Below, in pieces: positions 1 to 28,881 of a DNA stretch of 43,617 nt. The position numbers and the translations under genes are program-made. Numbering within the stretch: position 1 is the stretch's first letter; every line of letters starts with the position of its first letter. Origin of the DNA: Comamonadaceae bacterium (lineage in GTDB: Bacteria; Pseudomonadota; Gammaproteobacteria; Burkholderiales; Burkholderiaceae_C); the NCBI GenBank assembly GCA_947373245.1, contig CANBWY010000012.1, forward strand, positions 1-43,617, written 5' to 3'. Under the pieces are notes generated by a model. It was not told the DNA's origin. It did no database searches and worked only from the letters and a program-made list of their open reading frames with translations.

Positions 1-431
1 ACATGCTTGATGTGAAACTGGTCAATCAAGGCATCGGCCTTGTCGCCCAAGTTGGAATCGCTGGGCGAGAACATGCGGCTGAACATGGTGCCTTGGTGTT
101 CTTGCGCCGCCACGATCAAGTTGTCGCGCACGGTCATCTTGCCAAACACTTGCAAGGTTTGGAAGGTGCGGCCTACGCCCAAACGGTTGAGTTCCAAGGG
201 GCCCAGTTGGGTCACATCTTGGCCGTTGAGTTCAATCTTGCCGGCGTCCGGTGTGATCTGGCCCAACATGCTGTTGAACAGCGTGGTCTTGCCAGAGCCG
301 TTGGGGCCAATGACGCCAAAGATTTCGCCGGGACGCACCTCAAACGACACACCGCCCACGGCTTGAATGGCACCGTATGCCTTCTTCAAGTCGGTGACTT
401 TGAGAACGGGTTGAATGTTTGAATTCGTCAT
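1..431 (-). CDS. livG: Liv-type ABC transporter ATP-binding protein (partial)
   Basis: ATPase of a branched-chain-amino-acid-family (HAAT) importer; it powers uptake at the cytoplasmic face of the membrane. Reading from the ATG at 431, 143 residues are visible and the C-terminal half lies beyond the window start. Residues about 8-30 give the usual LivG opening (KVTDLKKAYGAIQAVGGVSF), followed by a Walker A motif GPNGSGKTT near residue 43 and the Q-loop region GRTFQTLQVFGKMTVRDNL. The start overlaps the livM stop by four bases (ATGA), so the two are translationally coupled. The Walker B, signature and H-loop cannot be seen here. A LivF partner is expected further left. The substrate may be an aromatic or dicarboxylic acid rather than an amino acid, judging by the surroundings, but that is inference. 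Confidence 0.9.
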   Translation of the reverse strand, partial: MTNSNIQPVLKVTDLKKAYGAIQAVGGVSFEVRPGEIFGVIGPNGSGKTTLFNSMLGQITPDAGKIELNGQDVTQLGPLELNRLGVGRTFQTLQVFGKMTVRDNLIVAAQEHQGTMFSRMFSPSDSNLGDKADALIDQFHIKH

Positions 432-1411
432 GCCTTCACTCCTGATTGGCCAGCCGCTGCGCGCGCCGCTGAGGCTTCACGCGACAGACGTTTTGCGCGC
501 ATGCGGTCTGGAATGCTCAGCAAACCATCGGGCAACCAAATCATCAGCATCACCACGGCCGTGCCGAACACAAACAAATACCAAGCCTGTGCAAAGCGCA
601 ACCACTCCGGCAAGATCACACCCACGGCCGCACCCAGCAAGGGACCTAAGAAATAGCCAGGGCCACCCACCACCACCATGAGGTACATCATGATGGACGC
701 CTCCACCGTGAACGGTGCAGGATCAATGAACTGCACCATGGAGCCAAACAAACCACCGGCAATACCGGCATAGGCCGCACCAATGGCAAAGCTCAACAAG
801 GTGTAGCCGCGAATGTCCACGCCCAAACTTTCGGCACGGATGGGGTTGTCGCGTAAGGCGGTGAATGCTTTGCCCCAAGGTGAGTTCAGCAAACCCCACA
901 AGAGCAAACCAAGCACCACGGCAAAAGCCAGCACCAAGTAGTAGTAAGCCAAGTTGCCGTCAAAACTGACGCCGAAGGCTTCAGGGCGTGCAATGTTGTT
1001 GATGCCAAACGTGCCGCCCGTGAGCCACTCTTCGTTGCGCATCACCAACCACACGGCGGTGTTGAAGCCCAGCGTGGCAAAGGCCAAATAAATGGTCTGC
1101 ACGCGCAGCGCGGGAAAGCCCAAAGCCAAGCCCACCACAAAGCAGCCCAAGGCCGCCAAGGGCATTCCCAGCCAAAAGCTGTAGCCCGCTTGCATCAAAA
1201 TGGCCACTGTGTAGGCACCGATGCCAAAGAACGCGGCGTGTCCCAGTGACTTTTGACCGGCATAGCCCACCGTGAGGTTCAAGCCCATGGCAGCGATCAC
1301 ATAAATCAACCAATAGGTGAACAAATAAATGCCGTGATTTTTGAGCAGCGTGGGCACAAAAATACAAGCGACCAGCCCCAAGAGGCCAGCAAGAATTGCG
1401 AGCTTCTTCAT
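428..1411 (-). CDS. livM: Liv-type ABC transporter permease LivM
   Basis: Inner-membrane permease, 327 aa, of the same HAAT importer. The sequence is a chain of hydrophobic segments beginning MKKLAILAGLLGLVACIF, and it contains the LivM hallmarks LNLTVGYAGQKSLGHAAFFG (about residues 45-64) and a cytoplasmic loop with RVQTIYLAFATLGF. The conserved EAA-like loop GINNIARP and the C-terminal WLPDGLLSI fit full length for the family. The start shares four bases with the stop of livH (ATGA), and its own stop overlaps livG in the same way, so H, M and G are one coupled unit. It would pair with LivH to form the translocation pore. Assignment is by motif; substrate is unknown. Confidence 0.93.
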   Translation of the reverse strand: MKKLAILAGLLGLVACIFVPTLLKNHGIYLFTYWLIYVIAAMGLNLTVGYAGQKSLGHAAFFGIGAYTVAILMQAGYSFWLGMPLAALGCFVVGLALGFPALRVQTIYLAFATLGFNTAVWLVMRNEEWLTGGTFGINNIARPEAFGVSFDGNLAYYYLVLAFAVVLGLLLWGLLNSPWGKAFTALRDNPIRAESLGVDIRGYTLLSFAIGAAYAGIAGGLFGSMVQFIDPAPFTVEASIMMYLMVVVGGPGYFLGPLLGAAVGVILPEWLRFAQAWYLFVFGTAVVMLMIWLPDGLLSIPDRMRAKRLSREASAARAAAGQSGVKA

Positions 1412-2283
1412 ACTTTGCGCTCCACCTTTTTACCGAGCAAGCCCTGTGGCTTGAACAAAATCACGACCATGAAGATCACCAGTGCCACCGCATCTTTGTA
1501 GGCGGGCGAGATGTAAGCCGCAGCCAAGTTCTCGCTCACGCCCACCAACAAGCCGCCCAACAAAGCGCCACGCGAGTTGTTGAAGCCGCCGATGATGGCC
1601 GCGAAGAACGCCTTGTTGCCCAGCGATGCGCCCATGTCGAACTTGGCGAGGTAAGTGGGCGTGACCAAAATGGCCGCCGCCGCCGCCAACAAAGCATTAA
1701 TCGCGAAGGTGTAAAAAATCATGCGCGGCACGTTGATGCCCAACACCGAAGCGCTCTCGGTGTTTTGCGCCACCGCTTGCATGGCGCGACCGGTGACGGT
1801 CTTGGCCAAGAACGCTTGTGTCACCAACACCAAGGCAATCGCGAAGACGAAGGTGCCAATGTCGGTGGCCGAAATGGTCACACCCGCAATGTTGTAAACC
1901 TCATCTGGAAACAGATTGGGGAAGGGTTGTGGCTCAGCGCTGTAACCGGCACGCACGGCGTTGCGCATGGCGATGGACAAACCAATGGTGGCAACCACGA
2001 TGGGCATCATGCCGAACTTGAAAAGGGGGTCCACCACGCCGCGCTTGAACAACCAGCCCAAGACGATGACCGACAACACACAACTGGCGGCAAAGCTCAA
2101 CACCAACGGAAAACCCGCAGCCATGAAGCCCAGCATCATGAAAGCAGGCAGCATCACAAACTCGCCTTGCGCGAAGTTGATGGTGCCCGAGGCTTGCCAA
2201 AGCAAGGTAAAGCCCAAGGCCGCTAGCGCATAAATGCTGCCGGTGGCGAGGCCACTGAAAAAGAGTTGTAGGAAGTCGGTCAT
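1408..2283 (-). CDS. livH: Liv-type ABC transporter permease LivH
   Basis: Second inner-membrane permease, 291 aa, full length for LivH. It opens with FLQLFFSGLATGSIYALAAL, followed by the typical LLWQASGTINFAQGEFVML (residues about 27-46). A later loop reads AQNTESASVLGIN, the EAA-type contact with the ATPase. It lies 13 bases downstream of the binding-protein gene and overlaps livM by ATGA. No separate promoter is visible, so it is probably co-transcribed from upstream of the binding protein. The assignment to the family is secure; which solute is carried is not shown by the sequence. Confidence 0.93.
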   Translation of the reverse strand: MTDFLQLFFSGLATGSIYALAALGFTLLWQASGTINFAQGEFVMLPAFMMLGFMAAGFPLVLSFAASCVLSVIVLGWLFKRGVVDPLFKFGMMPIVVATIGLSIAMRNAVRAGYSAEPQPFPNLFPDEVYNIAGVTISATDIGTFVFAIALVLVTQAFLAKTVTGRAMQAVAQNTESASVLGINVPRMIFYTFAINALLAAAAAILVTPTYLAKFDMGASLGNKAFFAAIIGGFNNSRGALLGGLLVGVSENLAAAYISPAYKDAVALVIFMVVILFKPQGLLGKKVERKV

Positions 2284-2296
2284 GTTGATTCAGGCG

Positions 2297-3442
2297 TTAC
2301 TTCTTGGCGTTCAAAGCTGGCAAAGTGGCGGTGACCACTTGGCGACCGTTTTTCACTTCAATCAAGAAGCTCTCACGGTCGAGGTCGCCATTGGCATCAA
2401 AGCTCACATCCATGATGACGCCAGGGTACTTTTTGGCGCTGATGTTGATGCCATGCAAGGCTTGCGCCACAGCTTTGCGGTCGAGTTTGCCCACTTTTTC
2501 GATGGCGGCTTTCAGCACATACACGCTGGTGTAGCCCTTGATGCCGTTGTGGTCCGAAATGCTGCCGTAGGCTTGGTAGTACTTGGCCTTGAACTTCAAC
2601 ATTTCTGGGATCGGTGCGTCCACAGTCAAACCGACGTGCGCCATCGCGCCGTTGGCGGCGTCGCCTGCCAACTCAATCACTTTTTGACCGGTCAAGGTGG
2701 TTTCACCAATCACGGGCTTGGTCCAACCTTGCTTCTTCAACTCGCGCAACAAACGTGCGGACTCTTCTTCGTTGGTGTAGGCAAAAATCGCATCTGCATT
2801 GCTTTGCTTGGCTTTCAACACAGCGGCTGTAAAGTCGACCTGACCTGCATCGGTCGAGATGTCTGCCACCACTTTGGTAGGGCCATCAGCCAGCAACTTC
2901 GCCAAGGTGTCGCGACCGCCTTTGCCGAAGTCGTTGTTCACGTAAATCACCGCCAAGGTCTTGGCTTTGGTGTTGATGAACTTGGCGAGCTTAGGAAATG
3001 AACTGCTTTGACCAAACGCGGTGCGGAACACATAGGGGTTACCTTGTGCGGTGATGGATGCGGCTTCGCCGCCGGTGAAGTTAGGCACTTCGCCGCGCTT
3101 GCTCTCGGCCATGGACACCATGATGGAGCCCGAATACACAGGACCAAAAATAGCGAACACGCCATCGTCCACGGCCTTTTGGGTCAAGCCCTTGGCCACG
3201 CCTGGGTTGGTTTGTGTGTCTACGGTGTAGCTCTCGATTTTTTTACCCAAGATGCCGCCGTTGTCGTTGATCTCTTTGACCGCCAACTCGACCCCGTTTT
3301 TGAACACCGTACCGGCTGTAGTGCCAGGACCCGAGAGCTCAACGATGTTGGCAATCTTGATGGTCTGCTGAGCATGTGCGATGCCTGCTAAAGCAAAAAT
3401 AGCGGCCGCTGCAACAGCTTTCAGGGTGGAACGTTTATTCAT
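2297..3442 (-). CDS. Periplasmic ABC substrate-binding protein (LivK type)
   Basis: Periplasmic solute-binding protein, 381 aa, of the Peripla_BP_6 family that delivers ligand to LivHM. A clear signal peptide (MNKRSTLKAVAAAAIFALAG, cleavage probably after AHA, residues 22-24) precedes the mature start QQTIKIANIVELSGPG. The two-lobed pattern is complete, including VYSGSIMVSMAESKRGEVPN and the hinge ALKAAIEKVGKLDRKAV type C-terminal helix. A good ribosome site (AGAGGAG) sits just before the ATG at 3442. It is first in the livKHMG unit and divergent from an IclR regulator, so that regulator probably controls it. Members of this family next to aromatic genes often bind aromatic acids; that is inference here. 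Confidence 0.9.
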   Translation of the reverse strand: MNKRSTLKAVAAAAIFALAGIAHAQQTIKIANIVELSGPGTTAGTVFKNGVELAVKEINDNGGILGKKIESYTVDTQTNPGVAKGLTQKAVDDGVFAIFGPVYSGSIMVSMAESKRGEVPNFTGGEAASITAQGNPYVFRTAFGQSSSFPKLAKFINTKAKTLAVIYVNNDFGKGGRDTLAKLLADGPTKVVADISTDAGQVDFTAAVLKAKQSNADAIFAYTNEEESARLLRELKKQGWTKPVIGETTLTGQKVIELAGDAANGAMAHVGLTVDAPIPEMLKFKAKYYQAYGSISDHNGIKGYTSVYVLKAAIEKVGKLDRKAVAQALHGINISAKKYPGVIMDVSFDANGDLDRESFLIEVKNGRQVVTATLPALNAKK

Positions 3443-3605
3443 GGATGTCTCCTCTTTGGGGGTTGAGTTGAGCCAATGTCGGGGCGGCTCGGGGTGATGA
3501 AATCAGCGGCACAGCGTCCAAAGGCATGGACGTGTGAAATTTAATTGAAAATGCTTGAAGTGCTGCATAAATAAACCCAAGGCGCGCGATTAACGAACGT
3601 CTTTG

Positions 3606-3622
3606 TGCGATCATCGATCGCA
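3606..3622. promoter_or_regulatory. Candidate PcaR-type operator
   Basis: A perfect inverted repeat, TGCGATC - ATC - GATCGCA, lies 25 bases before the ATG of the IclR regulator and between it and livK. With the preceding G at 3605, the 15 bases GTGCGATCATCGATC differ at two positions from the reverse complement of the Pseudomonas putida PcaR box as I remember it (GTTCGATAATCGCAC). The site argues against a TTG start at 3603, which would put the operator inside the gene. Binding is inferred, not shown. Confidence 0.55.
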
Positions 3623-3647
3623 TCACGGGTTTCCCCTTGGGCAGGTT

Positions 3648-4430
3648 ATGAACACACTTTTGGCGCAATCGACGGGCATGGACAAGAAGGACTGGATCGC
3701 TGGTCTGGACAAGGGTTTGGCCATGCTGCAAACCTTTGACGAACACAACCCGCGTTTGACTGCCACACAAGCCGGCCAACGCTGTGGCCTCACGCGCACC
3801 GCCGCGCGCCGCTATTTGCTCACCCTCGCCCACTTGGGCTTTGTGAGCAGCGATGGCAAGTTGTTTTGGCTCACGCCCAAGGTCATGCGCTTGGGCCAGT
3901 CGTACTTGGAATCGGCGCGCTTGCCGCGCATCGTGCAGCCCTCGTTGCAGCGGCTGGCGATGGGCACACAAGAAATTTCGTTTGTCGCCGTGCTCGATGG
4001 CTACGACTTGGTCTACATCGCACGCAACGGGCAAAACCGCAGCATGAACACCAGCTTCGCGCTGGGTGCGCGTGTGCCCTGTCACCTCACCTCGGCAGGC
4101 GTGTTGTTGCTCGCGCTCATGGGTGAGGAAGCCGTAGACGCGTGGCTGGCCGCGCATGAATTGAAAGCCTTCACGTCGCACACCATCACCGACCCCAAAC
4201 GCATGCGTGCCGAGTTGGGCCGCATACGTGCGCAAGACTGGGCCTTGTCTGAGCAGCAACTCGACTTGGCGTACCGTGGCGTGGCCGTGCCCTTGCGTGA
4301 TCACAAAGGGAATGTGCAAGGCGCATTGACCGTCAGCATGCCCATTCAGAACGAAACGTCCAAGGAAGCGGTCAACCGTGTGCTGCCCGTGTTGCGCGAA
4401 GTGGCGCAGAGTTTGCGCCCGTTGATTTGA
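3648..4430 (+). CDS. IclR-family regulator, PcaR/PobR-like
   Basis: DNA-binding transcription regulator, 260 aa from the ATG at 3648. The opening after MDKKDWIAGLDKGLAMLQTF is typical of the PcaR/PcaU/PobR branch of IclR proteins, which sense aromatic-pathway intermediates such as beta-ketoadipate or 4-hydroxybenzoate. The helix-turn-helix covers about residues 35-70 (TATQAGQRCGLTRTAARRYL), followed by RLGQSYLESARLPRIVQP and the effector domain with ALGARVPCHLTSAGVLLLAL. An alternative ATG is at 3678; a TTG at 3603 is rejected because the operator-like repeat lies just after it. It is divergent from livK and probably controls it and itself. No protocatechuate 3,4-cleavage genes occur in the window, so its effector may belong to another pathway. 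Confidence 0.88.
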   Translation: MNTLLAQSTGMDKKDWIAGLDKGLAMLQTFDEHNPRLTATQAGQRCGLTRTAARRYLLTLAHLGFVSSDGKLFWLTPKVMRLGQSYLESARLPRIVQPSLQRLAMGTQEISFVAVLDGYDLVYIARNGQNRSMNTSFALGARVPCHLTSAGVLLLALMGEEAVDAWLAAHELKAFTSHTITDPKRMRAELGRIRAQDWALSEQQLDLAYRGVAVPLRDHKGNVQGALTVSMPIQNETSKEAVNRVLPVLREVAQSLRPLI

Positions 4431-4450
4431 CGTTGCGGTTTTGGTGATGA

Positions 4451-4535: not shown

Positions 4536-4563
4536 GCGACTGTTGTGAACGTGGCGCGCTAAT

Positions 4564-5373
4564 TCAGGCATAGCCTAAAGCCTTCTTAGTTGCATTGAGG
4601 CACAGTTCGGCCCATGCTTTGTCGCCCATGGGTTTTGATCGTTCTAGGTTCACGATCTCTACGCTCACAGGGAGGTCTTGGGGCAAGGTGGCAAACAAAC
4701 CTGTCACATCAATGTTGCCTTCACCTGGCAACAAACGTTCTTGTCTTGCGGTGTGGATCAATTCTTCTGTCGTGAAGTTCAAACCTGCTTGTGCATCGCA
4801 CATCTGCGCGTAGTGCAACAACTCGCGTGGGATAGCGGCGATGTCTTGCAAGGTCGTGGTGGAACGACCAAAGTGCAAAGCGTCTACCAGAATGCCAGCA
4901 TTGCTAGGGCGTCCTGCCAACTCAACCACGCGCATGGCGGACTTGGCGTCTTTCACGGCGGTCCATGGCATGAACTCCAAATCGGCGGTCAAGCCGTAGG
5001 GGCGCATGGCATCACAAAGCGCAGCGTAGTTGTCGGCCAAACGTGATTCATTGGCGTCGTCTGCGGCAATCAACACTGCTTTGGCACCCAAGGTTTGGCC
5101 GATGTCCATCAACGCGGCATGGTCAGACACTTTGAATTGTTCACCAATGCGGATGATTTCTAAGTCATACACCCCTACCCCTGTGTCACGCATCACCGCT
5201 TGGGTTTCGCGCAACACAGCAACATCGCCAATCAAGGTTTGAAAGGGTGCACCGGGTCCGTTGGGTTGCACACGCAAACCCACATAGGCATAGCCCAACT
5301 CCGCCGCAATGCCAATGGCTTGCGGCACGGTCGACGCGTTGGCCGTTAAGTACGCGAGTGAATAGGGACGCAT
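4564..5373 (-). CDS. Sugar-phosphate isomerase/epimerase-type TIM barrel (dehydroshikimate dehydratase-like?)
   Basis: Cytosolic TIM-barrel protein of the AP-endonuclease-2/xylose-isomerase-like superfamily, 269 aa from the ATG at 5373 (a GTG at 5391 is possible). Candidate metal-site residues stand where the family has them: E133 in LEFMPW, D164 and H167 in VDALHF, Q190, and E239 in SVEIVN; a RLLPGEG motif follows at 213-219. The superfamily includes sugar isomerases, 2-keto-acid isomerases and bacterial 3-dehydroshikimate dehydratases, which make protocatechuate. It is the last gene of a minus-strand unit with an IclR regulator and a flavoprotein, opposite a shikimate-dehydrogenase-like gene. 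A dehydratase role is therefore attractive but unproven; the exact reaction cannot be read from sequence. Confidence 0.75.
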   Translation of the reverse strand: MRPYSLAYLTANASTVPQAIGIAAELGYAYVGLRVQPNGPGAPFQTLIGDVAVLRETQAVMRDTGVGVYDLEIIRIGEQFKVSDHAALMDIGQTLGAKAVLIAADDANESRLADNYAALCDAMRPYGLTADLEFMPWTAVKDAKSAMRVVELAGRPSNAGILVDALHFGRSTTTLQDIAAIPRELLHYAQMCDAQAGLNFTTEELIHTARQERLLPGEGNIDVTGLFATLPQDLPVSVEIVNLERSKPMGDKAWAELCLNATKKALGYA

Positions 5374-5406
5374 GGTGTGACGCCTTGACACGTGGCTTGA
5401 ATGGCT

Positions 5407-7824
5407 TTACTTCAAAGGCGAAACCGCAGTGGGCAAGGCGATGGTGGACACCATGTGGGTCGTCAAATGAGCAGGGCCGCCTTTGGGTGGCCAGATGCCT
5501 TGGGCCACGGCGTCAGTGCGCGCTTTGCTGCGTGCATCGAGGGTGGGGTAAGCCCAGATGTTGGTGAAGCGCAAGGGGCCATCCAAAGCCACCATCGCCA
5601 CCACGCACGGCGAAATTTTGTCGCGTGCGGGAATGGCTTGCTCCCACAAATCAATCGTGGGTTGCACGCCACCGGGCTTGATGCCGTAGGTGCGAATTTC
5701 GTACACAGGACCGTTGATGCCGCTCTCGGCGCTGGGGCGCACGGGCTTCATCCAAGGGAAGCCTTGGTAGCTGTGTTGCGCCAAGCTTTGGAAGATCTCG
5801 CCACAGCCAAAGGGGCTGGCGTTGTGTTGGGTGCGGTGGCGTTCGGCTTGCAAGGTGGCCAAGTCGTCAAAGCCACGCATCACAATCATTTGGTTGAGCA
5901 CACCGATGTCGGTGAACCAGCAGCCCAGCAGTTCACCTTGGCCTTGGGCACAAAAAGTTTGCACGTTGGCAGCGGCTTGGGCGGCGGTGCCAAAAGGCAG
6001 CGTCAGGGTGGCGAGTTCGTAGTACATGGGAGAAGTCCTTTTCAAAAATGGATGTTCGGATGATGAAGCGTCTGGCGAGAAACCGGCCGCATGGTGTGCC
6101 GCCAAATAACCAAAGGTCATGGCGGGGCCAAGGGTGATACCGCCACTCGGGTAGTTGCCGCCCATCACGCTAGAGAGATCGTTGCCACCAGCATACAAAC
6201 CATCGATGGTTTGGCCTTGGGCGTCGAGCACTTGGGCGTGTGCGTTGCAGCGCAAGCCAGCAAATGTGCCCAAACTGCCCGCCACAACGCGCACCGCATA
6301 GAACGGGCCATCTTGGATGGGTGCCATGCACGGGTTGCGCCCTTCGTGGGCGGCGTCCCCTTGCATGCGGTTGTAAGCGGTTTGGCCTTTGGCAAATTCA
6401 CCGTCGTAGCCAATGTCGGCTTGTGTGTTGTAACGCGCCACGGTGTTTTGCAAAGCCACGACGTCGATACCGCATGCTTGCGCCAATTCAGCCAGTGTGT
6501 TGCCGCGTTGCAAATAACCATTGGCCAACATGCCGTGCATAGGCACAGGTGCAGGCTTGACCGCACCCAAACCCCAGCGACGGATGAAGCGGTGGTCCAC
6601 CACCAACCACGCTTGCACAGGCTCGCCCTGATGTTCTTCAGAATGCAGCGCGTTGATCAAGCCTTGCATAAAGTCGTGGTACGAGTCGGCCTCGTTGACA
6701 AAGCGTTTGCCAAACCGTGTCACGGCGATCAAACCAGGTTTGCCGCGCTCAATCAAATGCGGGAAATGGGCGTTTGCGCCCCCTTCAGCGCCACGCTGAC
6801 GTGGCACCAAAGAGACGGGCGCCAGCGCTGCCGCGTGCTTCAAATCAGTGGCGACAACGGCGCCCACCGATTCGCCCAAACGCAAACCATCGCCGGTGTT
6901 GCCGCGAGAGGCTGCGGAGAAATGTTGTTGCCCTGTGGGATCGTGTGGCAAGCGTTGGCTTTTGCGCTGTGGGTCGTGCGGGAAGCCACCAGTGGCCAGC
7001 ATCACACCGCGCTTGGCGCGAAGGGTTTGCTCTGCCCCGTGGTGCATCACCACGGCGCCGCGCACTTTCTGTGTGCCGTCTTTGCCATCCTCGGTCACCA
7101 ATCGCACGGCCGGGCTGTTCACGCGAATGTCCACCCCCGCATCCAACGCGGACTTGGCCAACGCCGCCACCAAGGCATTGCCATTGACCAGCTGCATACC
7201 TCGGCCATGCAGCGCCAAGTCGAACACATGGCGTGTCACGCGCTTGGCCACATGAACAAACGAGCCCCATGAACGCAAGGCATTGAAGAAATGGCGAATG
7301 TCTGTGCCCGATGCAATGCCCATGCCCCAGAAGGTCATTTCGTACAAAGGCGTTTTGAGTTGCTTGATGCGATGCCCCAGCAAGCGGCCATTGAACGGCG
7401 CAGCGCATACCGAGCGCCCCCCCAGTGCCGCATCTTCGGTGCGGCCATGAAAGTCGGGAATGGCATTGCCGTCGATGAACTGCAACGCCGTGTGTTCTTG
7501 AAAGAAGCGCAACATGCGCGGGCCGTGTGTGAGGAAAGCACGCACACGCACTTCGTCAAACTGCTCACCCAATTCGTGGCGCAAGTACGAGAGCGGTTTT
7601 TCAATCGGCTCCGTGATGCCGCCCCTAATCGCAAGCGGATTGCGCGGAATCCACATCCAGCCGCCCGACCAAGCGGTGGTGCCGCCGTAGTGCGGGTCTT
7701 TTTCCACCACGATGACTTTGAGGCCCAAATGCGCCGCCGTCACCGCCGTCGACAGCGCACCTGCGCCTGAACCCACGACGAGCAAATCGCAATCCCACGG
7801 TGTCGACGTGCTGGGGTCGCTCAT
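5407..7824 (-). CDS. KstD-like FAD dehydrogenase fused to a NIPSNAP protein
   Basis: An 805-aa protein with two parts. Residues 1-590 form a FAD-dependent dehydrogenase of the 3-ketosteroid-desaturase/fumarate-reductase fold: dinucleotide motif VVGSGAGALSTAVTAA near residue 17, EKDPHYGGTTAWSGG, RFVNEADSYHDF, and a C-terminal YPSGGITLGPAMTFGYLAA. The Y-x-x-x-G of that last motif matches the tautomerising Tyr/Gly pair of KstD. Residues 600-805 (from 6027) are a complete double NIPSNAP module starting MYYELATLTL with a second repeat at VYEIRTYGIKPGG. These are usually separate genes; here no stop codon separates them, yet AAAAGGA lies 8 bases before the internal ATG at 6027. The gene begins three bases after the IclR stop. 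Likely role: desaturation of a cyclic ketone or alicyclic acid; substrate unknown. Confidence 0.85.
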   Translation of the reverse strand: MSDPSTSTPWDCDLLVVGSGAGALSTAVTAAHLGLKVIVVEKDPHYGGTTAWSGGWMWIPRNPLAIRGGITEPIEKPLSYLRHELGEQFDEVRVRAFLTHGPRMLRFFQEHTALQFIDGNAIPDFHGRTEDAALGGRSVCAAPFNGRLLGHRIKQLKTPLYEMTFWGMGIASGTDIRHFFNALRSWGSFVHVAKRVTRHVFDLALHGRGMQLVNGNALVAALAKSALDAGVDIRVNSPAVRLVTEDGKDGTQKVRGAVVMHHGAEQTLRAKRGVMLATGGFPHDPQRKSQRLPHDPTGQQHFSAASRGNTGDGLRLGESVGAVVATDLKHAAALAPVSLVPRQRGAEGGANAHFPHLIERGKPGLIAVTRFGKRFVNEADSYHDFMQGLINALHSEEHQGEPVQAWLVVDHRFIRRWGLGAVKPAPVPMHGMLANGYLQRGNTLAELAQACGIDVVALQNTVARYNTQADIGYDGEFAKGQTAYNRMQGDAAHEGRNPCMAPIQDGPFYAVRVVAGSLGTFAGLRCNAHAQVLDAQGQTIDGLYAGGNDLSSVMGGNYPSGGITLGPAMTFGYLAAHHAAGFSPDASSSEHPFLKRTSPMYYELATLTLPFGTAAQAAANVQTFCAQGQGELLGCWFTDIGVLNQMIVMRGFDDLATLQAERHRTQHNASPFGCGEIFQSLAQHSYQGFPWMKPVRPSAESGINGPVYEIRTYGIKPGGVQPTIDLWEQAIPARDKISPCVVAMVALDGPLRFTNIWAYPTLDARSKARTDAVAQGIWPPKGGPAHLTTHMVSTIALPTAVSPLK

Positions 7825-7827
7825 GGT

Positions 7828-8643
7828 TTAGGCCGCGTAAATGGGTTGCAAACGCACACGGCTGGTGCCACGCGCCAACATGGGCGAAGCGCCACTGGCC
7901 GCGGCCAACTGCGCCGCACAGGACAACAAATCAGGCGCGAGTGCCAACATGCGATCGCGTGTCAAACGTGCCGAAGGGCCCGCCACACTGATGGTGCCCA
8001 TGGGCAACTGCCCCGCCAAACCCACAGGTGCAGCAATGGCGTTCAGGCCTGCGGTGTAGGTTTCTTCGGTCAAGCTAAAGCCTTGTTTGCGGGTGTCTTG
8101 CAAGACCTTGAGAAAGGCTTTCAAGCTCTTGGGGGCATTGGGGCCGAAGTCTTGCGGCAAGCCCAAGCCTTGTTGTGACACCAAGGCCAAAGCGTCGTCG
8201 TCTTTCATGGTGGACAACCAAGCCAAGCCCGAAGACGAGCAGCTCAAACGGGCAATGCTCCCCATGTCGGGGTCGTAGCGCAGGCCTTGGCGTGCGCCTT
8301 GTGCGCGTGCCACCCACGTCAAGCGGTCGCCATCCACCACCGACAAACGCACCAGCTCGCCGGTTTGCTCAGCCAAACGGTCCAGCAAAGGCTGAGCCAC
8401 ATCAACAACACCGGTTTTGCTGAGGTAGCTTAAGCCAAGGGACACGAGTTTGGTGGTCAACACGTATTCGCCCAAGTCTCGGGTTTGGCGTACATAACCA
8501 AAACGAATCAGGTCTGCCAACAGTCGGTGTGCGGCGCTCTTGGGCATGTTGAGCTTGTCAGCCAACACCGCCAACTCGACGCCCTGCCCCTGTTGGGACA
8601 AGAGCTCCAAGATGCCCAAAGTTCTCTCAAGTACGCCGCTCAT
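7828..8643 (-). CDS. IclR-family transcription regulator
   Basis: Transcription regulator, 271 aa from the ATG at 8643. It opens MSGVLERTLGILELLSQQGQ, with the winged helix-turn-helix at about residues 20-60 (AVLADKLNMPKSAAHRLLADL) and an IclR effector domain containing GYVLTTK-like EYVLTTKLVSLGLSYL and the conserved GLNAIAAPV near residue 200. An in-frame ATG at 8670 would add nine residues, but the best promoter for this strand (TTGAAC, 16-base spacer, GATAAA at 8680-8675) would start transcription about there, so 8643 is preferred. It is the first gene of the unit with the flavoprotein and TIM barrel, so it is probably autoregulated and also controls the divergent dehydrogenase gene through the repeats at 8687-8718. 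Confidence 0.88.
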   Translation of the reverse strand: MSGVLERTLGILELLSQQGQGVELAVLADKLNMPKSAAHRLLADLIRFGYVRQTRDLGEYVLTTKLVSLGLSYLSKTGVVDVAQPLLDRLAEQTGELVRLSVVDGDRLTWVARAQGARQGLRYDPDMGSIARLSCSSSGLAWLSTMKDDDALALVSQQGLGLPQDFGPNAPKSLKAFLKVLQDTRKQGFSLTEETYTAGLNAIAAPVGLAGQLPMGTISVAGPSARLTRDRMLALAPDLLSCAAQLAAASGASPMLARGTSRVRLQPIYAA

Positions 8644-8674
8644 GGTGTTGTGTGGAAATGAAGATGGCATGGAC

Positions 8675-8734
8675 TTTATCACGAAAAACGAAATTCGTTC
8701 AAAAGTTGAACGTAGTTCTATTTTTAGATAAACT
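8675..8734. promoter_or_regulatory. Mirror-image divergent promoter with nested operators
   Basis: A perfect inverted repeat GTTCAA-AAG-TTGAAC at 8697-8711 supplies a TTGAAC -35 box on each strand. On the plus strand it is followed after 17 bases by TAAACT (8729-8734); on the minus strand after 16 bases by GATAAA (8680-8675). Two further perfect repeats touch it: AACGAA-A-TTCGTT (8687-8699) and GAAC-GTA-GTTC (8708-8718). This fits IclR control of both the iclR-flavoprotein-TIM unit and the shikimate-dehydrogenase-like unit. Promoter strength and binding are inferred. Confidence 0.6.
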
Positions 8735-8767
8735 GCGCCACATTCATCCACTCGACTTTGAATCACC

Positions 8768-9562
8768 ATGCTTGAAAACTTCAGCGGCGCCACACGTGTT
8801 TACCTCATCGTGGGCGACCCGATTGCCCAAGTGAAATCACCGTTTGGTGTGACCCAAGCCTTTGAATCGCAGGGCCGCGACGCCATCTGCGTCCCCGCCC
8901 ACGTCGCCCCCGCTGATTTGAGCGCTTGGTGGGCTGGCACCCAACGCGCACGCAACATCGACGGCCTGATCGTCACGGTGCCGCACAAATTTGCATGCAC
9001 CGCGTTTTGCGACACCTTGTCAGAGCGCGCCGCTTTTCTGGGCACCGTGAACACCGTGCGCCGCAATGCACAAGGCCAATGGCATGGCGATATGTTCGAC
9101 GGCTTGGGCTACGTGCGTGCCATGGAAAAGAACGGTTGCACCTTGAAAAACAAACGCGCCTTGCTCGTGGGAGCTGGCGGTGCAGGTTCGGCCATTGCAC
9201 ACAGCTTGGTGCTGGCGGGTGTGCGCGAATTGGCCATTCACGACCCCGACGCACAACGCCGTCAGTCATTGATCGACCGTCTCAACAGCTTGAAGTTGGG
9301 CCAGGTCAGCCAAGGCAGCCCCGACCCCACAGGGTTTGATGTGGCCGTCAACGCCACGCCCATTGGCATGAAAGAGAACGACCCCACGCCGATTGACACC
9401 AGCAAAATTCACGGTGACATGTTCATCGGCTGCGTCATCACCGCACCGGCCATCACGCCCTTAATTGCGGCGGCACGTGCTAAAGGATGTCAAACCGTCA
9501 CAGGCGCCGACATGTTTGCGCAAGTGCGTGAGCTGATGGTGCAGTTCTTGTTGGAGGCCTGA
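8768..9562 (+). CDS. Shikimate dehydrogenase-family protein (AroE/YdiB-like, altered pocket)
   Basis: NAD(P)-dependent dehydrogenase of the shikimate/quinate dehydrogenase family, 264 aa, full length. The catalytic Lys is K74 in TVPHK and the catalytic Asp is D111 in MFDGLG; N95 in GTVNTV is kept, and the nucleotide-binding motif is VGAGGAGSAIA at about 134-144. Two substrate-carboxylate or ring contacts differ from E. coli AroE: the first Ser of the SKS motif is Val (QVKSP, residues 21-25), and the Thr before the catalytic Asp is Phe (F110). It is therefore probably a catabolic paralogue acting on a different alicyclic acid. It begins a unit with the second KstD-like flavoprotein, three bases downstream, and is expressed divergently from the iclR unit. 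Confidence 0.85.
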   Translation: MLENFSGATRVYLIVGDPIAQVKSPFGVTQAFESQGRDAICVPAHVAPADLSAWWAGTQRARNIDGLIVTVPHKFACTAFCDTLSERAAFLGTVNTVRRNAQGQWHGDMFDGLGYVRAMEKNGCTLKNKRALLVGAGGAGSAIAHSLVLAGVRELAIHDPDAQRRQSLIDRLNSLKLGQVSQGSPDPTGFDVAVNATPIGMKENDPTPIDTSKIHGDMFIGCVITAPAITPLIAAARAKGCQTVTGADMFAQVRELMVQFLLEA

Positions 9563-9565
9563 ACC

Positions 9566-11368
9566 ATGCACGACACCATAGACGACACCTTGCCCCCACT
9601 CGCCCACCACATCAACACCGATCTGTCGCAACTCAAAGACCAAGACACCGTAGATTTGGTCGTCATCGGCTCTGGGGGCGCAGGCTTCTCGGCGGCACTG
9701 AATGCTGCGATTGACGGCGCACGCGTGCTGTTGGTCGAACGCATGGCCCACGTGGGCGGCACCACGGCTTTGTCGGCCGCCACCACGTGGGTGCCCGGCA
9801 CGAAACGCGGTTTGCAAGTCAACCCCGACGACACGCCCGAGCGCGTGGCCACGTTTTTAAACCTCGCGGTGGGCGAACGCTCTGACGCCAAACTGCGCCA
9901 AGCGTTCATCGACAACGGCCCCCACGCCATTGCCAAGCTTGAAGCCCACAGCGCACTGCAATTTCAAGTGCGCATGTTGCACCCCGACTATTTGTCGGAG
10001 CTCGACGGCGCGGTGTTGCGTGGCCGCGCAATTGAGCCACAACCCTTCGATGGCAAATTGCTCGGCCCCAACCTCACTTTGGTGCGCAACCCCATCCCCG
10101 AGTTCACCGTGCTCGGCGGCATGATGGTGGACCGCGATGACATCTTCCATTTGTTGCGTTTGACGCAAACGTGGAAGTCATTCAGCTACAGCGTGCGGAT
10201 CATCGTGCGCCACTTCCTCGACAAACTCTTGCAGCCACGCAGCACACGCTTGGTCATGGGCAACGCCCTGATTGCGCGCATGCTCTACAGCTACATCCAG
10301 CGCAACGGTATGTTGGTGACCAACACCGAAGCCACGCAACTCTTACAAGACGGCAACGCCATTGAAGGCGTGGTGCTGCAACAAACCTTGCCCGATGGCA
10401 GCGTCGTGAAACGCACCGTGCGCAGCAAAGGCGGCGTGGTCATGGCCAGCGGCGGCTTCAACCGCCACGCCACACGCCGCGCAGACATGTTGCCCGGTGC
10501 CAAAGAAGCGTGGTGCCCCGCAGGCCCGGGCCACACCGGCAAAGCCCAAGATTTGGCTTTGCAAGCGGGCGGGCAACTTGGCAGCGGTGGTTTGAGCCAC
10601 GCGTTTTGGGCCCCTATCTCCACACGCCAGCGTGCCGATGGCAGCAGCGCCGTCTTCCCACACTTTGTGATGGACCGCGGCAAGCCCGGCATGCTCACCG
10701 TGGACAGCCAAGGTCAACGCTACGTGAACGAATCCACCTCGTACCACTTGTTTGGCATGGCCATGCAAGCGCACCACGCCACCACACCCAGCGTGCCTTC
10801 GTGGTTGGTCTGCGATGCCGCCGCGCTGAAGCGCTATGGCATTGGCATGGTTCGTCCCGGTGGCAAAGGCTTAGCGCCGTTCTTGGCCGATGGCTATTTG
10901 AAACAAGGCCACACCTTGGCCGATTTGGCGCAACAGCTCAAGGTGCCCGCCGACAAACTCAAAGCCACCGTCGACCGTTTCAATGCGTTTGCTGACCAAG
11001 GCGTGGACGAAGATTTCCAACGCGGCACCACCGATTACCAACGCGCCAATGGCGACGCCACATGGCCCGGCCCCAACCCATGCTTGGGTGCATTGCGCGA
11101 AGGCCCCTTCTATGCCGTGGCGCTCTACCCCGGCGACATTGGTGCCGCCACAGGCTTGGTCACCGATGGCGATGCGCGCGTGCTCAACGCACAGGGCCTT
11201 GCCATGGACGGCCTGTACGCCTGCGGCAACGACATGCATTCCATCATGGGCGGTGTGTACCCTGCCCCGGGCATCACCATTGGGCCGGGGGTCACGTTTG
11301 GTTATTTAGCCGCCAAGCATGCCGTGGCAAGGGCTGGCGTGGCAAGTCATGGCATGCCTAGGCCTTAA
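9566..11368 (+). CDS. KstD-like FAD-dependent dehydrogenase
   Basis: Flavoprotein of 600 aa in the 3-ketosteroid-desaturase/fumarate-reductase superfamily, a paralogue of the flavoprotein half of the 5407-7824 gene. The FAD motif VVIGSGGAGFSAALNAA is near residue 32, then ERMAHVGGTTALSAATTWVP, RYVNESTSYHLF near residue 390, and the C-terminal YPAPGITIGPGVTFGYLAAK. The Tyr and Gly of Y-P-A-P-G match the KstD residues that help enolise a ketone. The start has a GGAGG site at 9553-9557 inside the end of the preceding dehydrogenase gene, so translation is coupled. Its 3' end overlaps the opposing fumarylacetoacetase gene by 11 bases. Likely role: introducing a double bond next to a carbonyl in a six-membered ring; substrate unknown. 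Confidence 0.87.
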   Translation: MHDTIDDTLPPLAHHINTDLSQLKDQDTVDLVVIGSGGAGFSAALNAAIDGARVLLVERMAHVGGTTALSAATTWVPGTKRGLQVNPDDTPERVATFLNLAVGERSDAKLRQAFIDNGPHAIAKLEAHSALQFQVRMLHPDYLSELDGAVLRGRAIEPQPFDGKLLGPNLTLVRNPIPEFTVLGGMMVDRDDIFHLLRLTQTWKSFSYSVRIIVRHFLDKLLQPRSTRLVMGNALIARMLYSYIQRNGMLVTNTEATQLLQDGNAIEGVVLQQTLPDGSVVKRTVRSKGGVVMASGGFNRHATRRADMLPGAKEAWCPAGPGHTGKAQDLALQAGGQLGSGGLSHAFWAPISTRQRADGSSAVFPHFVMDRGKPGMLTVDSQGQRYVNESTSYHLFGMAMQAHHATTPSVPSWLVCDAAALKRYGIGMVRPGGKGLAPFLADGYLKQGHTLADLAQQLKVPADKLKATVDRFNAFADQGVDEDFQRGTTDYQRANGDATWPGPNPCLGALREGPFYAVALYPGDIGAATGLVTDGDARVLNAQGLAMDGLYACGNDMHSIMGGVYPAPGITIGPGVTFGYLAAKHAVARAGVASHGMPRP

Positions 11369-13162: not shown

Positions 13163-13180
13163 GTGTGTGACCTCGGTTGA

Positions 13181-13441: not shown

Positions 13442-13457
13442 TCGGGTGTCCTTGGGT

Positions 13458-22077: not shown

Positions 22078-23034
22078 TCACGCGTTGAGTTGCAACTCCA
22101 ACTCATGCAGCACTTTGTAGCAAGGCAAGACTTGCGCAACGCTCGAGTTGGGCTCGCGGCCTTCCTTGATCGCAGCAAAGAACTCACGGTCTTGCAACTC
22201 GATGCCGTTCATGGACACGGCCACTTGAGACACATCGATTTGCGCTTCCTTGCCGGTGAACAAATCGTCGTAACGGGCCAAGTAGGTGCCGGTGTCGCCG
22301 ATGTAACGGAAGTAGGTGCCCAAAGGGCCGTCGTTGTTGAACGACAAGCTCAAAGTACAAATCGCGCCGTTGGCAGCTTGCAACTGAATGCTCATGTCCA
22401 TCGCAATGCCTAGCGTGGGGTGAATAGGGCCTTGCACCGCATTGGCTTTGACGATGGGGCTGCCCGCTTGGTAAGCAAACAAATCCACCGTGTGGGCCGC
22501 GTGGTGCCACAGCAAGTGGTCGGTCCAGCTTCGGGCTTGGCCCAAGGCATTCATGTTGGTGCGGCGAAAGAAATAGGTTTGCACATCCATTTGCTGAATG
22601 TTGAATTCACCCGCTTTGATTTTGTTGTGCACCCACTGGTGGCTGGGGTTGAAGCGACGGGTGTGACCGCACATCGCGACCAAGCCTTTTTCTTTGGCCA
22701 CGCGCGCCACTTCTTCAGCGTCTTTCCAGCTGTCGGCCAAGGGAATTTCCACTTGCACGTGCTTGCCTGCTTTCAAGCAAGCCAAGCTTTGTGCGGCGTG
22801 CATTTGGGTGGGCGTACACAAAATAACGGCATCAACTTCGGGCAATGCCAAGCTGTCCGCCAAATCGGTGGTGATGTGTTGGATGCCGTATTTGTCGGCG
22901 ACTTCTTTGGTTTTTGCCAAATCACGGCTGATCAATGACACGACTTCCACGCCGTCGATGTTTTTGATGCCGTCCAAGTGTTTGATGCCGAAGGCACCCG
23001 CGCCCGCCAAGGCGACTTTGATGGTTTTGCTCAT
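22078..23034 (-). CDS. ligC: 4-Carboxy-2-hydroxymuconate-6-semialdehyde dehydrogenase
   Basis: NADP-dependent dehydrogenase of the Gfo/Idh/MocA family, 318 aa, which oxidises the cyclic hemiacetal of the protocatechuate ring-cleavage product to 2-pyrone-4,6-dicarboxylate. The Rossmann motif VALAGAGAFGIKHLDGI is at residues 7-23. The second domain contains TRRFNPSHQWVH and WTDHLLWHHAAHTVDLFAYQ near residue 170, with the catalytic-type His residues seen in LigC and PmdC. The ATG at 23034 is chosen because GAGGAA lies six bases upstream of it; an ATG at 23040 is too close to that site. It is the last gene of the lig operon, 12 bases after ligB. Confidence 0.92.
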   Translation of the reverse strand: MSKTIKVALAGAGAFGIKHLDGIKNIDGVEVVSLISRDLAKTKEVADKYGIQHITTDLADSLALPEVDAVILCTPTQMHAAQSLACLKAGKHVQVEIPLADSWKDAEEVARVAKEKGLVAMCGHTRRFNPSHQWVHNKIKAGEFNIQQMDVQTYFFRRTNMNALGQARSWTDHLLWHHAAHTVDLFAYQAGSPIVKANAVQGPIHPTLGIAMDMSIQLQAANGAICTLSLSFNNDGPLGTYFRYIGDTGTYLARYDDLFTGKEAQIDVSQVAVSMNGIELQDREFFAAIKEGREPNSSVAQVLPCYKVLHELELQLNA

Positions 23035-23046
23035 CTTCATTTCCTC

Positions 23047-24379
<1,333 letters not shown>

Positions 24380-24380
<1 letters not shown>

Positions 24381-25297
24381 TAAATTTTCTCCTCGGGCCA
24401 ATACAGGCGCATGGGGTTATCGACCAACAACTTGCGCTGCTGCGCTTCAGTGGTCGCGATGTGCGGAATGAAGTCCACCAGCAAGCCGTCATCGGGCATG
24501 TGGTCTTTGAGGTTGGGGTGCGGCCAATCGGTGCCCCAAATCACGCGGTCTGGGAACTCGTCCACGATGCGCTTGGCAAAAGGAATCACATCTTGGTAGG
24601 CGTTTTGCTCGCCGTTCAAAGCCTTGGGGCCAGAGACCGACAAACGCTCAGGGCACGTCACCTTGCTCCACACGTTTTTGTGTTCGCGCATGAACTTCAC
24701 AAACAATTCAAACTCGGGGCCATCGACCGGCTTGGTCACATCAGGACGGCCCATGTGGTCCACCACCACATTGGTGGGCAAGGCGGTGAAGAAGTCCCAC
24801 AGCTCGGGCAAGTCCACGGCCTCAAAGTAAATCACCACATGCCAGCCCCAGAGCTGGATGCGTTTGGCGATTTCAAGCAGTTCGTCTGTGGGTGTGAAGT
24901 CGACCAAGCGCTTGACAAAGTTAAAGCGCACCCCGCGCACGCCAGCGTCGTGCATGGCTTGAATTTCTTCGTCTGTCACGCTGCGCTTGACGGTGGCCAC
25001 GCCACGCGCTTTGCCGCCTGAGCTGACCAAGGCATCGACCATGGCGCGGTTGTCTGCACCGTGGCATGTGGCTTGCACCACCACGTTACGGGCAAAGCCA
25101 AGATGATCGCGCAAAGCAAACAGCTGCGCCTTGGACGCATCGCACGGGGTGTACTTGCGTTCAGGGGCGTAGGGAAACTCATTGCCAGGGCCAAACACGT
25201 GGCAGTGGGCATCCACCGCACCCGCAGGCAATTTGAATTTGGGTTTGCTGGGGCCGGTGTACCAGTCCATCCAGCCGGGTGTTTTTTGAAATTCCAT
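24380..25297 (-). CDS. ligI: 2-Pyrone-4,6-dicarboxylate lactonase
   Basis: Metal-independent amidohydrolase-superfamily lactonase, 305 aa from the ATG at 25297, converting 2-pyrone-4,6-dicarboxylate to 4-oxalomesaconate. The motif AVDAHCHVFGPGNEFPYAPE (about residues 26-45) and the C-terminal WGTDWPHPN with the catalytic Asp are those of LigI. A GAGG site precedes the start. A Bug-receptor gene ends 17 bases upstream. The stop TAA shares one base with the ligA start. Loss of the usual metal-binding Lys and His positions is normal in this family, so the protein looks complete. Confidence 0.93.
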
Positions 25298-25314
25298 CTC
25301 AGTCCTCTTTGTCA

Positions 25315-26280
25315 TCAATCGGGTTGAATGTTGGCTTCGCGCACCAGCTTGGCATAGCGCTGGCGTTCGGAGCGAATCAGTTGGGTGAACATCTCAGCGC
25401 TGCCAGGCACCACTTCGCCACCCACGGCGCTCATGCGCTCGCGCACTTCTTTGGTTTGCAAGGCTTTTTGTACCTCGTCATGCAGCTTGCTGACGATGGG
25501 TTTGGGCGTGGCCGCAGGTGCGACCAAACCGTACCAAACGGAGGCTTCAAAACCGGGGAAGCCCGATTCAGCAATGGTGGGCACATCCGGAAAGATGGCA
25601 CTGCGGTTGGGGCTGAGCACGGCCAACACTTTGAGCTTGCCACTCTTGACGTGGGGCAGCACTTCTAAGGCATTCACCGCCACCAATGGCAGTTGGCCAC
25701 CTATCACGTCGGTGATGGCGGGTGCACCGCCACGGTAAGGAATGTGTTGCAAATCAATGCCTGCGGCGCGTGCGAACAACTCAACCGCCATGTGGGGCGT
25801 CGAGCCGTTGCCGGGTGTACCAAACGCGATGCTGTTGGGCTTGCCTTTGGCCGCGTCGATCAATTGCTTGATGTTGGTGTAGGGTGCGCCTACGTTGGCT
25901 GCGATGACCACGGGCACACGGCCAATGAGCGACACAGCCACCAAGTCACGCTCGGCATCGAACGGTGCGGGTTGGTACAGCGCCATGTTGGCGGCCAAGG
26001 CATTGGCCGCCATCATCAAGGTATAGCCATCGGGCTCGGCGGAGATGACGGACTTCACGGCAATGTTGGTGCCTGCGCCCGGTTTGTTGTCGACCACCAC
26101 AGGCTGCCCCATGCTGAGGGACATGCTTTGGCCAATGGTGCGTGCCACCACATCCACCGCACCGCCAGCGGCATAGCCCACAACCATTTTGATGGGTTTG
26201 CTGGGATAGCTTTGCGCCAATGTTTGCCCCACCATCAACACCGAAAAAACGAAGGCACTGATACGCATCAAAAATTTCAT
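25315..26280 (-). CDS. Bug/TctC-type periplasmic solute receptor
   Basis: Periplasmic binding protein of 321 aa, Bug family (tripartite tricarboxylate receptor, TctC). It has a signal peptide (MKFLMRISAFVFSVLMVGQT, cleavage after LAQ) and the Bug pattern YPSKPIKMVVGYAAGGAVDV followed by GQPVVVDNKPGAGTNIAVK near residue 70. A GGAGA site precedes the ATG. Bug receptors usually serve TctAB membrane proteins, but none is encoded in this window. It lies in the lig operon between the SBP3 lipoprotein and ligI, so protocatechuate or a related acid is a likely ligand; the sequence does not fix it. Confidence 0.9.
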   Translation of the reverse strand: MKFLMRISAFVFSVLMVGQTLAQSYPSKPIKMVVGYAAGGAVDVVARTIGQSMSLSMGQPVVVDNKPGAGTNIAVKSVISAEPDGYTLMMAANALAANMALYQPAPFDAERDLVAVSLIGRVPVVIAANVGAPYTNIKQLIDAAKGKPNSIAFGTPGNGSTPHMAVELFARAAGIDLQHIPYRGGAPAITDVIGGQLPLVAVNALEVLPHVKSGKLKVLAVLSPNRSAIFPDVPTIAESGFPGFEASVWYGLVAPAATPKPIVSKLHDEVQKALQTKEVRERMSAVGGEVVPGSAEMFTQLIRSERQRYAKLVREANIQPD

Positions 26281-26299
26281 TTCTTGTCTCCGTTATAAA

Positions 26300-27139: not shown

Positions 27140-27162
27140 TGAGCTTGCTTCCTGTCTAGCGA

Positions 27163-28149: not shown

Positions 28150-28175
28150 GGACCAAGCTTTCAAAGTGATCGAAA

Positions 28176-28859: not shown

Positions 28860-28881
28860 AAGAAATCTCCTGGAAATTGAA

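Follow-up and report, generated by a model that had tools for sequence, protein, structure and literature searches.

The stretch of DNA analysed in this study, called the window throughout, is contig CANBWY010000012.1 of a Comamonadaceae bacterium (NCBI GenBank assembly GCA_947373245.1; positions 1 to 43,617 of the forward strand, 43,617 nucleotides), and the genome to which it belongs comprises 2.29 Mb in 112 contigs and is 84% complete. Our subject is a locus at which genes for a shikimate dehydrogenase (SDH)-like protein, two KstD-like flavoproteins, a NIPSNAP domain, a TIM barrel akin to dehydroshikimate dehydratase (DSD) and an IclR regulator lie together. An initial annotation made from the sequence alone had described five genes in two diverging arms here; all five are present in the open reading frame (ORF) listing and the family scans of the window, which bear out its gene list. 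The features of the locus are the following.

4564..5391, minus strand: TIM barrel (AP_endonuc_2; PF01261, 46 bits in the family scan), candidate DSD-like metal-dependent dehydratase
5407..7824, minus strand: fusion of KstD-like flavoprotein 1 with a NIPSNAP domain (PF00890, 309 bits; PF07978, 84.8 bits; PRK06134 family)
7828..8643, minus strand: IclR regulator of the module, with its start moved from 8793 (longest ORF) to 8643
8644..8767, no strand: divergent intergenic region of 124 bp, with a palindrome at 8696-8712 as candidate IclR operator
8768..9562, plus strand: SDH-family dehydrogenase (Shikimate_dh_N; PF08501, 60.6 bits)
9566..11368, plus strand: KstD-like flavoprotein 2 (FAD_binding_2, PRK12843 family, by family scan)

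The gaps inside the two arms measure 15, 3 and 3 bp. The longest ORF of the IclR gene, which reaches 8793, overlaps the SDH ORF by 26 bp, and this overlap is probably an annotation artefact, because the IclR ORF in a complete same-genus genome is 271 aa long, which corresponds to the ATG at 8643. The nearest named relatives of the SDH-like protein come from two Comamonadaceae metagenome-assembled genomes (MAGs; 93 and 91%) and two Limnohabitans strains (89%).

Relatives of the locus were collected by searching an alignment of nine SDH-like proteins against 84,980 species genomes and seeking the partners within 10 kb, and all conservation counts refer to the best 80 of 476 SDH-like relatives. 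With presence set at best-match identities of 45% for SDH, 50% for flavoprotein 1, 38% for flavoprotein 2, 45% for NIPSNAP, 36% for the TIM barrel and 45% for IclR, all six families occur together in 50 of the 80 loci, although these were retrieved with the SDH-like proteins alone, so the co-occurrence for which the initial annotation had proposed a gene-neighbourhood search is confirmed. When each flank is required to reach 9 kb or more, 44 loci remain, and 36 of these hold the complete set. Taken singly, flavoprotein 1 is found in 63 loci, flavoprotein 2 in 68, NIPSNAP in 58, the TIM barrel in 60 and IclR in 71. Ten loci of distant SDH relatives (L042-L051, at 35-41% identity), three of which are on contigs shorter than 9 kb, served as a control and showed no flavoproteins, NIPSNAP or module TIM at E <= 1e-8. 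Among eight nearer relatives (49-66%), L034 and L037 hold all six families, L036 five, and L035 and L041 both flavoproteins. These ten and eight loci are the 18 regions examined after a search of 300 Burkholderiales genomes, of which 27 gave an SDH-like match at E <= 1e-50. Fifteen annotated plasmid stretches were also compared: seven carry the module, five carry QuiC without it and three carry neither; a further three stretches came without annotation. The seven come from Diaphorobacter, Paraburkholderia, two Rhizobium, two Paracoccus and Limimaricola, one of them ending before a complete flavoprotein 2, and the transporters among these loci differ (MFS, Liv-type ABC and TTT). The six genes are thus a conserved catabolic module that spans Burkholderiales, Rhizobiales and Rhodobacterales. 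One further locus, L073, lies on a contig filed as Chitinophaga pinensis (a MAG) and has the module with Comamonadaceae-like sequences; this assembly is probably contaminated or misnamed.

The SDH-like protein belongs to the SDH superfamily by its PF08501 match and by the K74/D111 catalytic dyad, which is kept in 80 of 80 loci, and it falls outside AroE proper (TIGR00507, 139 of 200 bits). The equivalents of S14, Y215 and Q244 are V, T and V in the window protein; at the Q244 position Val is found in all 80 loci and Glu in three plasmid loci. A rule that loss of Q244 goes with the flavoproteins was tried and dropped because Gln is kept in L178 and L179. The closest SDH relatives outside module loci are three Rhizobium proteins (L138, L177 and L181), which stand beside QuiC and a Liv transporter in stretches without a flavoprotein and have Gln at the Q244 position. 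In the tree they fall inside the module SDH group and adjoin the flavoprotein-linked L178 and L179. This placement of QuiC-linked enzymes within the module group suggests that a 3-keto ring acid is the product of the module enzyme as well. Another SDH relative, on a Paracoccus denitrificans plasmid (L139), lies in a sugar-acid-like operon with dihydrodipicolinate-synthase-family, aldehyde dehydrogenase and FAH-family genes, and the SDH group is therefore broad in context.

Both flavoproteins match KstD by sequence and among PDB structures. Flavoprotein 1 exceeds the cut-off of PRK06134 (843 of 747 bits) and flavoprotein 2 that of PRK12843 (832 of 758 bits), two models that are both named just 'FAD-dependent oxidoreductase' with no substrate given. 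The KstD-named models (PRK12844, PRK12845 and PRK07843) gave at best 428 of 789 bits, with PRK12844 scoring 428 bits on flavoprotein 1 and 421 on flavoprotein 2. The initial annotation had drawn an analogy to the desaturases that aromatise 4-oxocyclohexanecarboxylate; taken as family membership this fails, as flavoproteins 1 and 2 score 482 and 429 bits on the ChcC2 model (cut-off 900) and 310 and 293 bits on the ChcC1 model (cut-off 1000). After residue numbering had been checked on an alignment to KstD1 (4c3x), we compared the positions of Tyr119, Tyr318, Tyr487 and Gly491, which we take from the KstD1 literature to be the active-site residues. Flavoprotein 2 of the window has all four, and among its 68 relatives they are kept in 67, 67, 65 and 65, respectively. 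In flavoprotein 1 the equivalents of Tyr318, Tyr487 and Gly491 are kept in 62, 59 and 60 of 63 relatives, but Phe replaces Tyr119 in all 63, so the four-residue KstD pattern is incomplete in this protein. Of the 58 relatives with both flavoprotein 1 and a NIPSNAP domain, 29 carry them as a fusion and 29 as separate proteins. The domain is about 215 aa long and is predicted to form a tandem dimeric alpha+beta barrel (model pLDDT 90.6); the PF07978 match together with this ferredoxin-like barrel fold places it in the NIPSNAP family. Its best Foldseek matches include an uncharacterised marine protein, and others, at 9-13% identity, are coproheme decarboxylase, anthrone-oxidase-like and monooxygenase-like proteins.

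The active-site residues of DSD are given as R64, L97, E134, L136, D165, H168, Q191, S206, R210 and E239 in PMC7442255. Eight of these ten positions are matched in the window TIM barrel, by R81, L107, E139, D170, H173, Q196, R219 and E245. Across 29 module TIM barrels, the equivalents of R64, E134, D165, H168, Q191, R210 and E239 are present in 29 of 29 and that of L97 in 28, and the four metal ligands are kept in 58-60 of 60 relatives. In a tree, from which a separate DSD-like sequence was omitted because it contains a stop, these 29 sequences, a hand-picked subset, form one clade with 11 DSD-type domains (support 1.0), in which the module TIM barrels are the sister clade of the DSDs, and six Hyi and six IolE sequences fall outside. 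The Arg64 of DSD is kept in the module TIM barrels and is absent from the six IolE and six Hyi sequences, and an NCBIfam scan of the window TIM barrel gave no Hyi or IolE match at E 1e-3. The initial annotation had held that a firm place among sugar or hydroxypyruvate isomerases would speak against its idea; the TIM barrel lies apart from the hydroxypyruvate isomerases and IolE proteins tested and groups with DSDs, so the isomerase half of that adverse outcome is absent. The module TIM barrel lacks an HPPD-like domain. The E-D-Q-E metal motif had been considered as a marker and was dropped, since it is common to hydroxypyruvate isomerases.

A perfect 7-3-7 palindrome, CGTTCAAAAGTTGAACG, lies at 8696-8712 within the 124-bp divergent gap. 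The pattern TTCAA-N(0-8)-TTGAA occurs in 30 of the 59 divergent IclR/SDH gaps of relatives, the remaining 29 being without it, and the spacer is 3 in all 30 palindrome-bearing gaps, with one additional site of spacer 1. The background frequency, with relatedness ignored, is 1.9% in random and 3.5% in low-GC 410-bp windows of the same loci. Judged from these comparisons, the palindrome is a good candidate for the IclR operator. The initial annotation had also spoken of one divergent promoter, but a scan of the gap for the sigma-70 consensus gave no promoter match.

The new element in this study is the linkage of the module to DSD genes and quinate/shikimate operons. Fifty genomes from the 80 loci entered the count, those with long flanks first and one of them (G336) with two identical copies. 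DSD domains are present in 45 of these genomes, on the same contig as the module SDH in 24 and within 20 kb of it in 17, while random placement, with relatedness ignored, expects 0.52. Two of the 17 are Hydrogenophaga loci (L120 and L129) with SDH and TIM copies and no nearby flavoprotein; when the four flavoprotein-less SDH copies (L088, L114, L120 and L129) are excluded, 15 of 47 genomes remain against 0.44 expected, among them Rhodoferax, Derxia, Shinella and an alphaproteobacterial MAG. In G318 and G319, two of the five genomes in which no DSD was counted, short DSD fragments stand at contig ends. QuiC is present in L035, L113, L119 and L133, and in Paracoccus alcaliphilus, outside the linkage set, it lies about 10 kb from the module. 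In G336, the genome of L113, the region with module SDH and QuiC appears twice with identical scores (contigs C6 and C56), as a duplication or an assembly artefact. Within the family, 120 genomes were sampled, and 11 of them have the module SDH at an identity of 52% or more; nine of the 11 have a DSD domain, the contig-edge DSD fragment of the window genome being left out of the nine; of the other 109 genomes, at least 38 have one (40 was also tried), giving a Fisher P of 0.003-0.005. Among these 11, flavoproteins were checked in G432, G404, G454 and G466, besides the window's own.

In G432, a complete genome of the window's genus, 24.5 kb separate the module SDH from the DSD. The module is followed by a PcaR-type IclR gene, LivKHM with an ATPase, Gfo/Idh genes and further genes, and then by a quinate/shikimate operon that comprises a TRAP transporter (DctQ, DctM, DctP), a type II 3-dehydroquinate (DHQ) dehydratase, an SDH, an HPPD-like protein and a DSD. 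In the window genome, another contig (C74; L048, 1-3908) carries DctP, DHQ dehydratase II, SDH, an HPPD-like protein and a DSD in the same order; its DHQ dehydratase II (PF01220) is 96% identical to that of G432, and its DSD, at the contig edge, covers the first 188 residues' worth. Together, the HPPD-like protein and DSD of C74 correspond to the fused QuiC, here split in two. The complete six-gene module of L173 shares a stretch of 20 kb with a DctP-like gene, another SDH, an HPPD-like gene and a DSD, and L174 has the module, Liv genes, an HPPD-like gene and a DSD together. Quinate and shikimate are thus probably already served by their own operon, with the module as a regional add-on. Two observations concern L172, from a same-genus genome: at 2057-6844 it carries an ApbA/PanE-like reductase, a family III CoA-transferase, an AroE that passes the AroE cut-off and a hydroxypyruvate-isomerase/IolO-like TIM barrel, and at 16105-16941, between the DSD operon and rpoD, a class III extradiol dioxygenase (PRK13364, 525 bits).

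The computed basis for an interpretation consists of the conserved gene set, the intact catalytic residues, the kinship of TIM barrel and DSD, the linkage to DSD genes and to quinate/shikimate operons, and the shared palindrome. KstD chemistry requires a ketone and takes off two neighbouring hydrogens, and in DSD chemistry a hydroxyl beta to a ketone is lost and the ring thereby aromatised. Dihydroshikimate and dihydroxycyclohexanecarboxylates, such as 3,4-dihydroxycyclohexanecarboxylate, are bacterial reduction products of plant shikimate and quinate. We consider the chances about even that the six genes form a single catabolic module whose substrate is a shikimate-related hydroaromatic carboxylic acid (a cyclohexane ring, saturated and hydroxylated). 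Since a dedicated operon exists for quinate and shikimate, the presence of desaturases suggests another substrate, one with a saturated ring, for which dihydroshikimate or 3,4-dihydroxycyclohexanecarboxylate would be our best guesses. The SDH-like enzyme would oxidise a ring hydroxyl to a ketone with NAD(P)+, one or both flavoproteins would remove the hydrogens alpha and beta to this ketone and so restore ring unsaturation, and the metal-dependent DSD-like TIM barrel would eliminate a beta-hydroxyl to give the aromatic ring. The NIPSNAP barrel, which may be a tautomerase or a small oxygenase, would assist flavoprotein 1, and the IclR protein would control both arms through the palindrome in the gap. 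A ring-saturated shikimate analogue would pass through ketone formation, desaturation and dehydration to protocatechuate, and a dihydroxy analogue would take two desaturations and no dehydration; the product would enter at 3-dehydroshikimate or protocatechuate and be processed further by the lig genes and the DSD operon nearby. We infer the order and direction of these steps, the electron acceptor, the NIPSNAP role and the product. Rather tentatively, we further propose that this may be an undescribed and widespread aromatisation pathway, by which ring-saturated relatives of shikimate would reach protocatechuate cleavage via SDH, double desaturation and DSD-like dehydration.

Several points weigh against this interpretation. 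Two desaturases are unexplained if a single double bond suffices, the KstD/flavocytochrome c superfamily includes reductases too, and a module with its own terminal dehydratase would need no neighbouring DSD. In the TIM barrel, L136 of DSD is replaced by Met in 28 of 29 and S206 by Ala in 29 of 29 module sequences (Ala also stands at the S206 position in four of four separate DSD-like TIM barrels). On the QuiC model, which describes a two-domain protein, it scores 33.9 bits over residues 95-248 against a cut-off of 1200 bits, below which the fused QuiC proteins of relatives likewise fall. Its best match in sequence and fold is the uncharacterised Lmo2234 (PDB 2g0w; 23-26% identity), followed by IolI and then by QuiC1. 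Loss of Q244 is not general, as the flavoprotein-linked SDHs of L178 and L179 keep Gln, and incomplete sets exist among the nearer SDH relatives, L038 having one flavoprotein only, L039 the TIM barrel only and L040 none. The linkage statistics take no account of relatedness, and most of the 15 linked genomes are Limnohabitans or relatives. On a shikimate-transporter model with a cut-off of 538 bits, a transporter encoded next to one of the modules reaches 276, well short of that value. Finally, substrate, product and activities rest on inference from sequence. The alicyclic-acid idea of the initial annotation is therefore upheld in part: the conserved module, the KstD pattern, the TIM-DSD grouping and the DSD linkage favour it, but a separate operon serves quinate and shikimate, and the flavoproteins are not members of the ChcC families.

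Could the module simply be another quinate/shikimate pathway, in which the SDH-like enzyme makes 3-dehydroshikimate (or dehydroquinate), the TIM barrel converts it to protocatechuate and the flavoproteins are accessory? The SDH and DSD kinship of the module enzymes agrees with this, as do the four loci with SDH-like and TIM genes and no flavoprotein within 10 kb (L088, L114, L120 and L129), two of which (L120 and L129) lie at most 11 kb from a DSD; in the L088 genome, a metagenome assembly, no flavoprotein was found at E <= 1e-60. However, the same genus has a dedicated operon with a DHQ dehydratase, most of which is also seen in the window genome, and the flavoproteins occur in 63 and 68 of the 80 loci with desaturase residues kept, so we regard this explanation as unlikely. 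A conversion of 4-oxo- or 4-hydroxycyclohexanecarboxylate to 4-hydroxybenzoate, analogous to that by ChcB, ChcC1 and ChcC2, would account for the pair of flavoproteins, since PMC9795900 reports two desaturases acting in succession on that route, and ChcC2 is the top substrate-naming NCBIfam model for both flavoproteins, narrowly so for flavoprotein 2. Yet the scores are about half of the ChcC cut-offs, the dehydrogenase is of SDH type and not SDR type, a DSD-like dehydratase has no place in the route, and the linkage observed is to DSD (linkage to 4-hydroxybenzoate genes was not searched), which makes this quite unlikely. We judge it very unlikely that the substrate is a cyclitol or sugar-like polyol which a Gfo/Idh/MocA protein and the SDH oxidise, the TIM barrel dehydrates or epimerises and the flavoproteins aromatise to a polyphenol. 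Gfo/Idh/MocA genes do occur close to the SDH in 21 of the 80 loci and also in several of the plasmid loci, and one SDH relative stands within a sugar-acid operon, but this family also occurs in a clear quinate/shikimate-pca operon, and the TIM barrel groups with DSD and not IolE and keeps the Arg64 that the six IolE and six Hyi sequences lack. That the flavoproteins derive from steroid or terpenoid ring desaturation and their neighbourhood is incidental is extremely improbable, for although they match KstD in sequence and PDB searches and one distal flavoprotein in the plasmid stretches is named 3-oxosteroid 1-dehydrogenase, the set is kept as a unit in Burkholderiales, Rhizobiales and Rhodobacterales while its transporters change, and no steroid gene cluster was noticed in the 15 annotated plasmid stretches, where no dedicated steroid-family search was made.

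The module has features in common with several known systems. Bacterial quinate/shikimate catabolism (QuiB/QsuC, SDH/QDH, QuiC/QsuB) likewise combines an SDH-family dehydrogenase and a DSD-like TIM barrel, often in the same region, and in some cases has protocatechuate cleavage genes nearby. Unlike it, the module has two KstD-like desaturases and a NIPSNAP barrel and no DHQ dehydratase, and its TIM barrel differs from QuiC/QsuB in forming a separate sister clade and in having no HPPD-like domain. In the aerobic aromatisation of cyclohexanecarboxylate by Sinomonas, ChcB1/B2, ChcC1 and ChcC2 are likewise reported to turn a ring alcohol into a ketone and, by flavoprotein desaturation beside that ketone, form an aromatic ring; the module differs from this system in the dehydrogenase family, in the added dehydratase and in flavoproteins far below the ChcC cut-offs. 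With KstD the flavoproteins share the fold family and the catalytic Tyr/Tyr/Gly pattern, but their partners are not steroid-like and flavoprotein 1 has its invariant Phe at Y119. In open-licence literature we found nothing that unites NIPSNAP, shikimate dehydrogenase and FAD-dependent oxidoreductase, and none on a 4-oxocyclohexanecarboxylate desaturase or on quinate in Limnohabitans; NIPSNAP, shikimate and operon together led just to antibiotic responses of Acinetobacter, and what came up for bacterial dihydroshikimate degradation deals, judged by title, with different topics. Annotations of the plasmid sets give only 'shikimate dehydrogenase', 'FAD-dependent oxidoreductase', 'NIPSNAP family protein', and 'sugar phosphate isomerase/epimerase' or 'TIM barrel protein'. 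If our interpretation is true, it would name a substrate class and a pathway for this gene set and provide functions for members of PRK06134 and PRK12843, both KstD-like families, and of one NIPSNAP subfamily. It would also let alicyclic carboxylic acids from the organic matter of freshwater and soils enter protocatechuate cleavage, and thus describe how ring-saturated carboxylic acids, which are among the little-understood components of dissolved organic matter, can be re-aromatised and mineralised.

Three further features of the window may be connected with the module.

22078..29054, minus strand: protocatechuate 4,5-cleavage (lig/pmd-type) genes, possible downstream pathway (model scans)
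3603..4430, plus strand: PcaR/PcaU/PobR-type IclR regulator (272 bits, cut-off 285), next to the module and the Liv genes
428..3442, minus strand: branched-chain-type ABC transporter with two permeases (PF02653) and a substrate-binding protein (PF13458)

The lig cluster, which the initial annotation had placed about 11 kb away, does start at 22078, 10.7 kb from 11368. LigB (23047-24222) and LigK (28176-29054) exceed a model cut-off, and the labels LigC and LigI are our own assignment. A close LigB/LigC cluster is found in four of the 80 module loci, all four from Limnohabitans-like relatives. The PcaR/PcaU/PobR-type regulator is probably associated with the module, and the Liv-type ABC transporter is a possible uptake system for the island. 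Within the lig region, at 25315-26280, 26300-27166 and 29947-30663, lie genes for periplasmic binding proteins of TctC type, amino-acid type and ModA-like type (22.6 bits, weak). Between the module and the lig cluster, positions 11358-16163 encode a fumarylacetoacetase (498 of 375 bits), a VOC protein, a PRK08132-family FAD monooxygenase and an MBL-fold hydrolase, which perhaps make up a second aromatic (homogentisate/gentisate-like) degradation cluster. At 32348-38048, a MadC-like VWA protein lies near molybdo-flavoprotein (glyceraldehyde/CO dehydrogenase-like) subunits.

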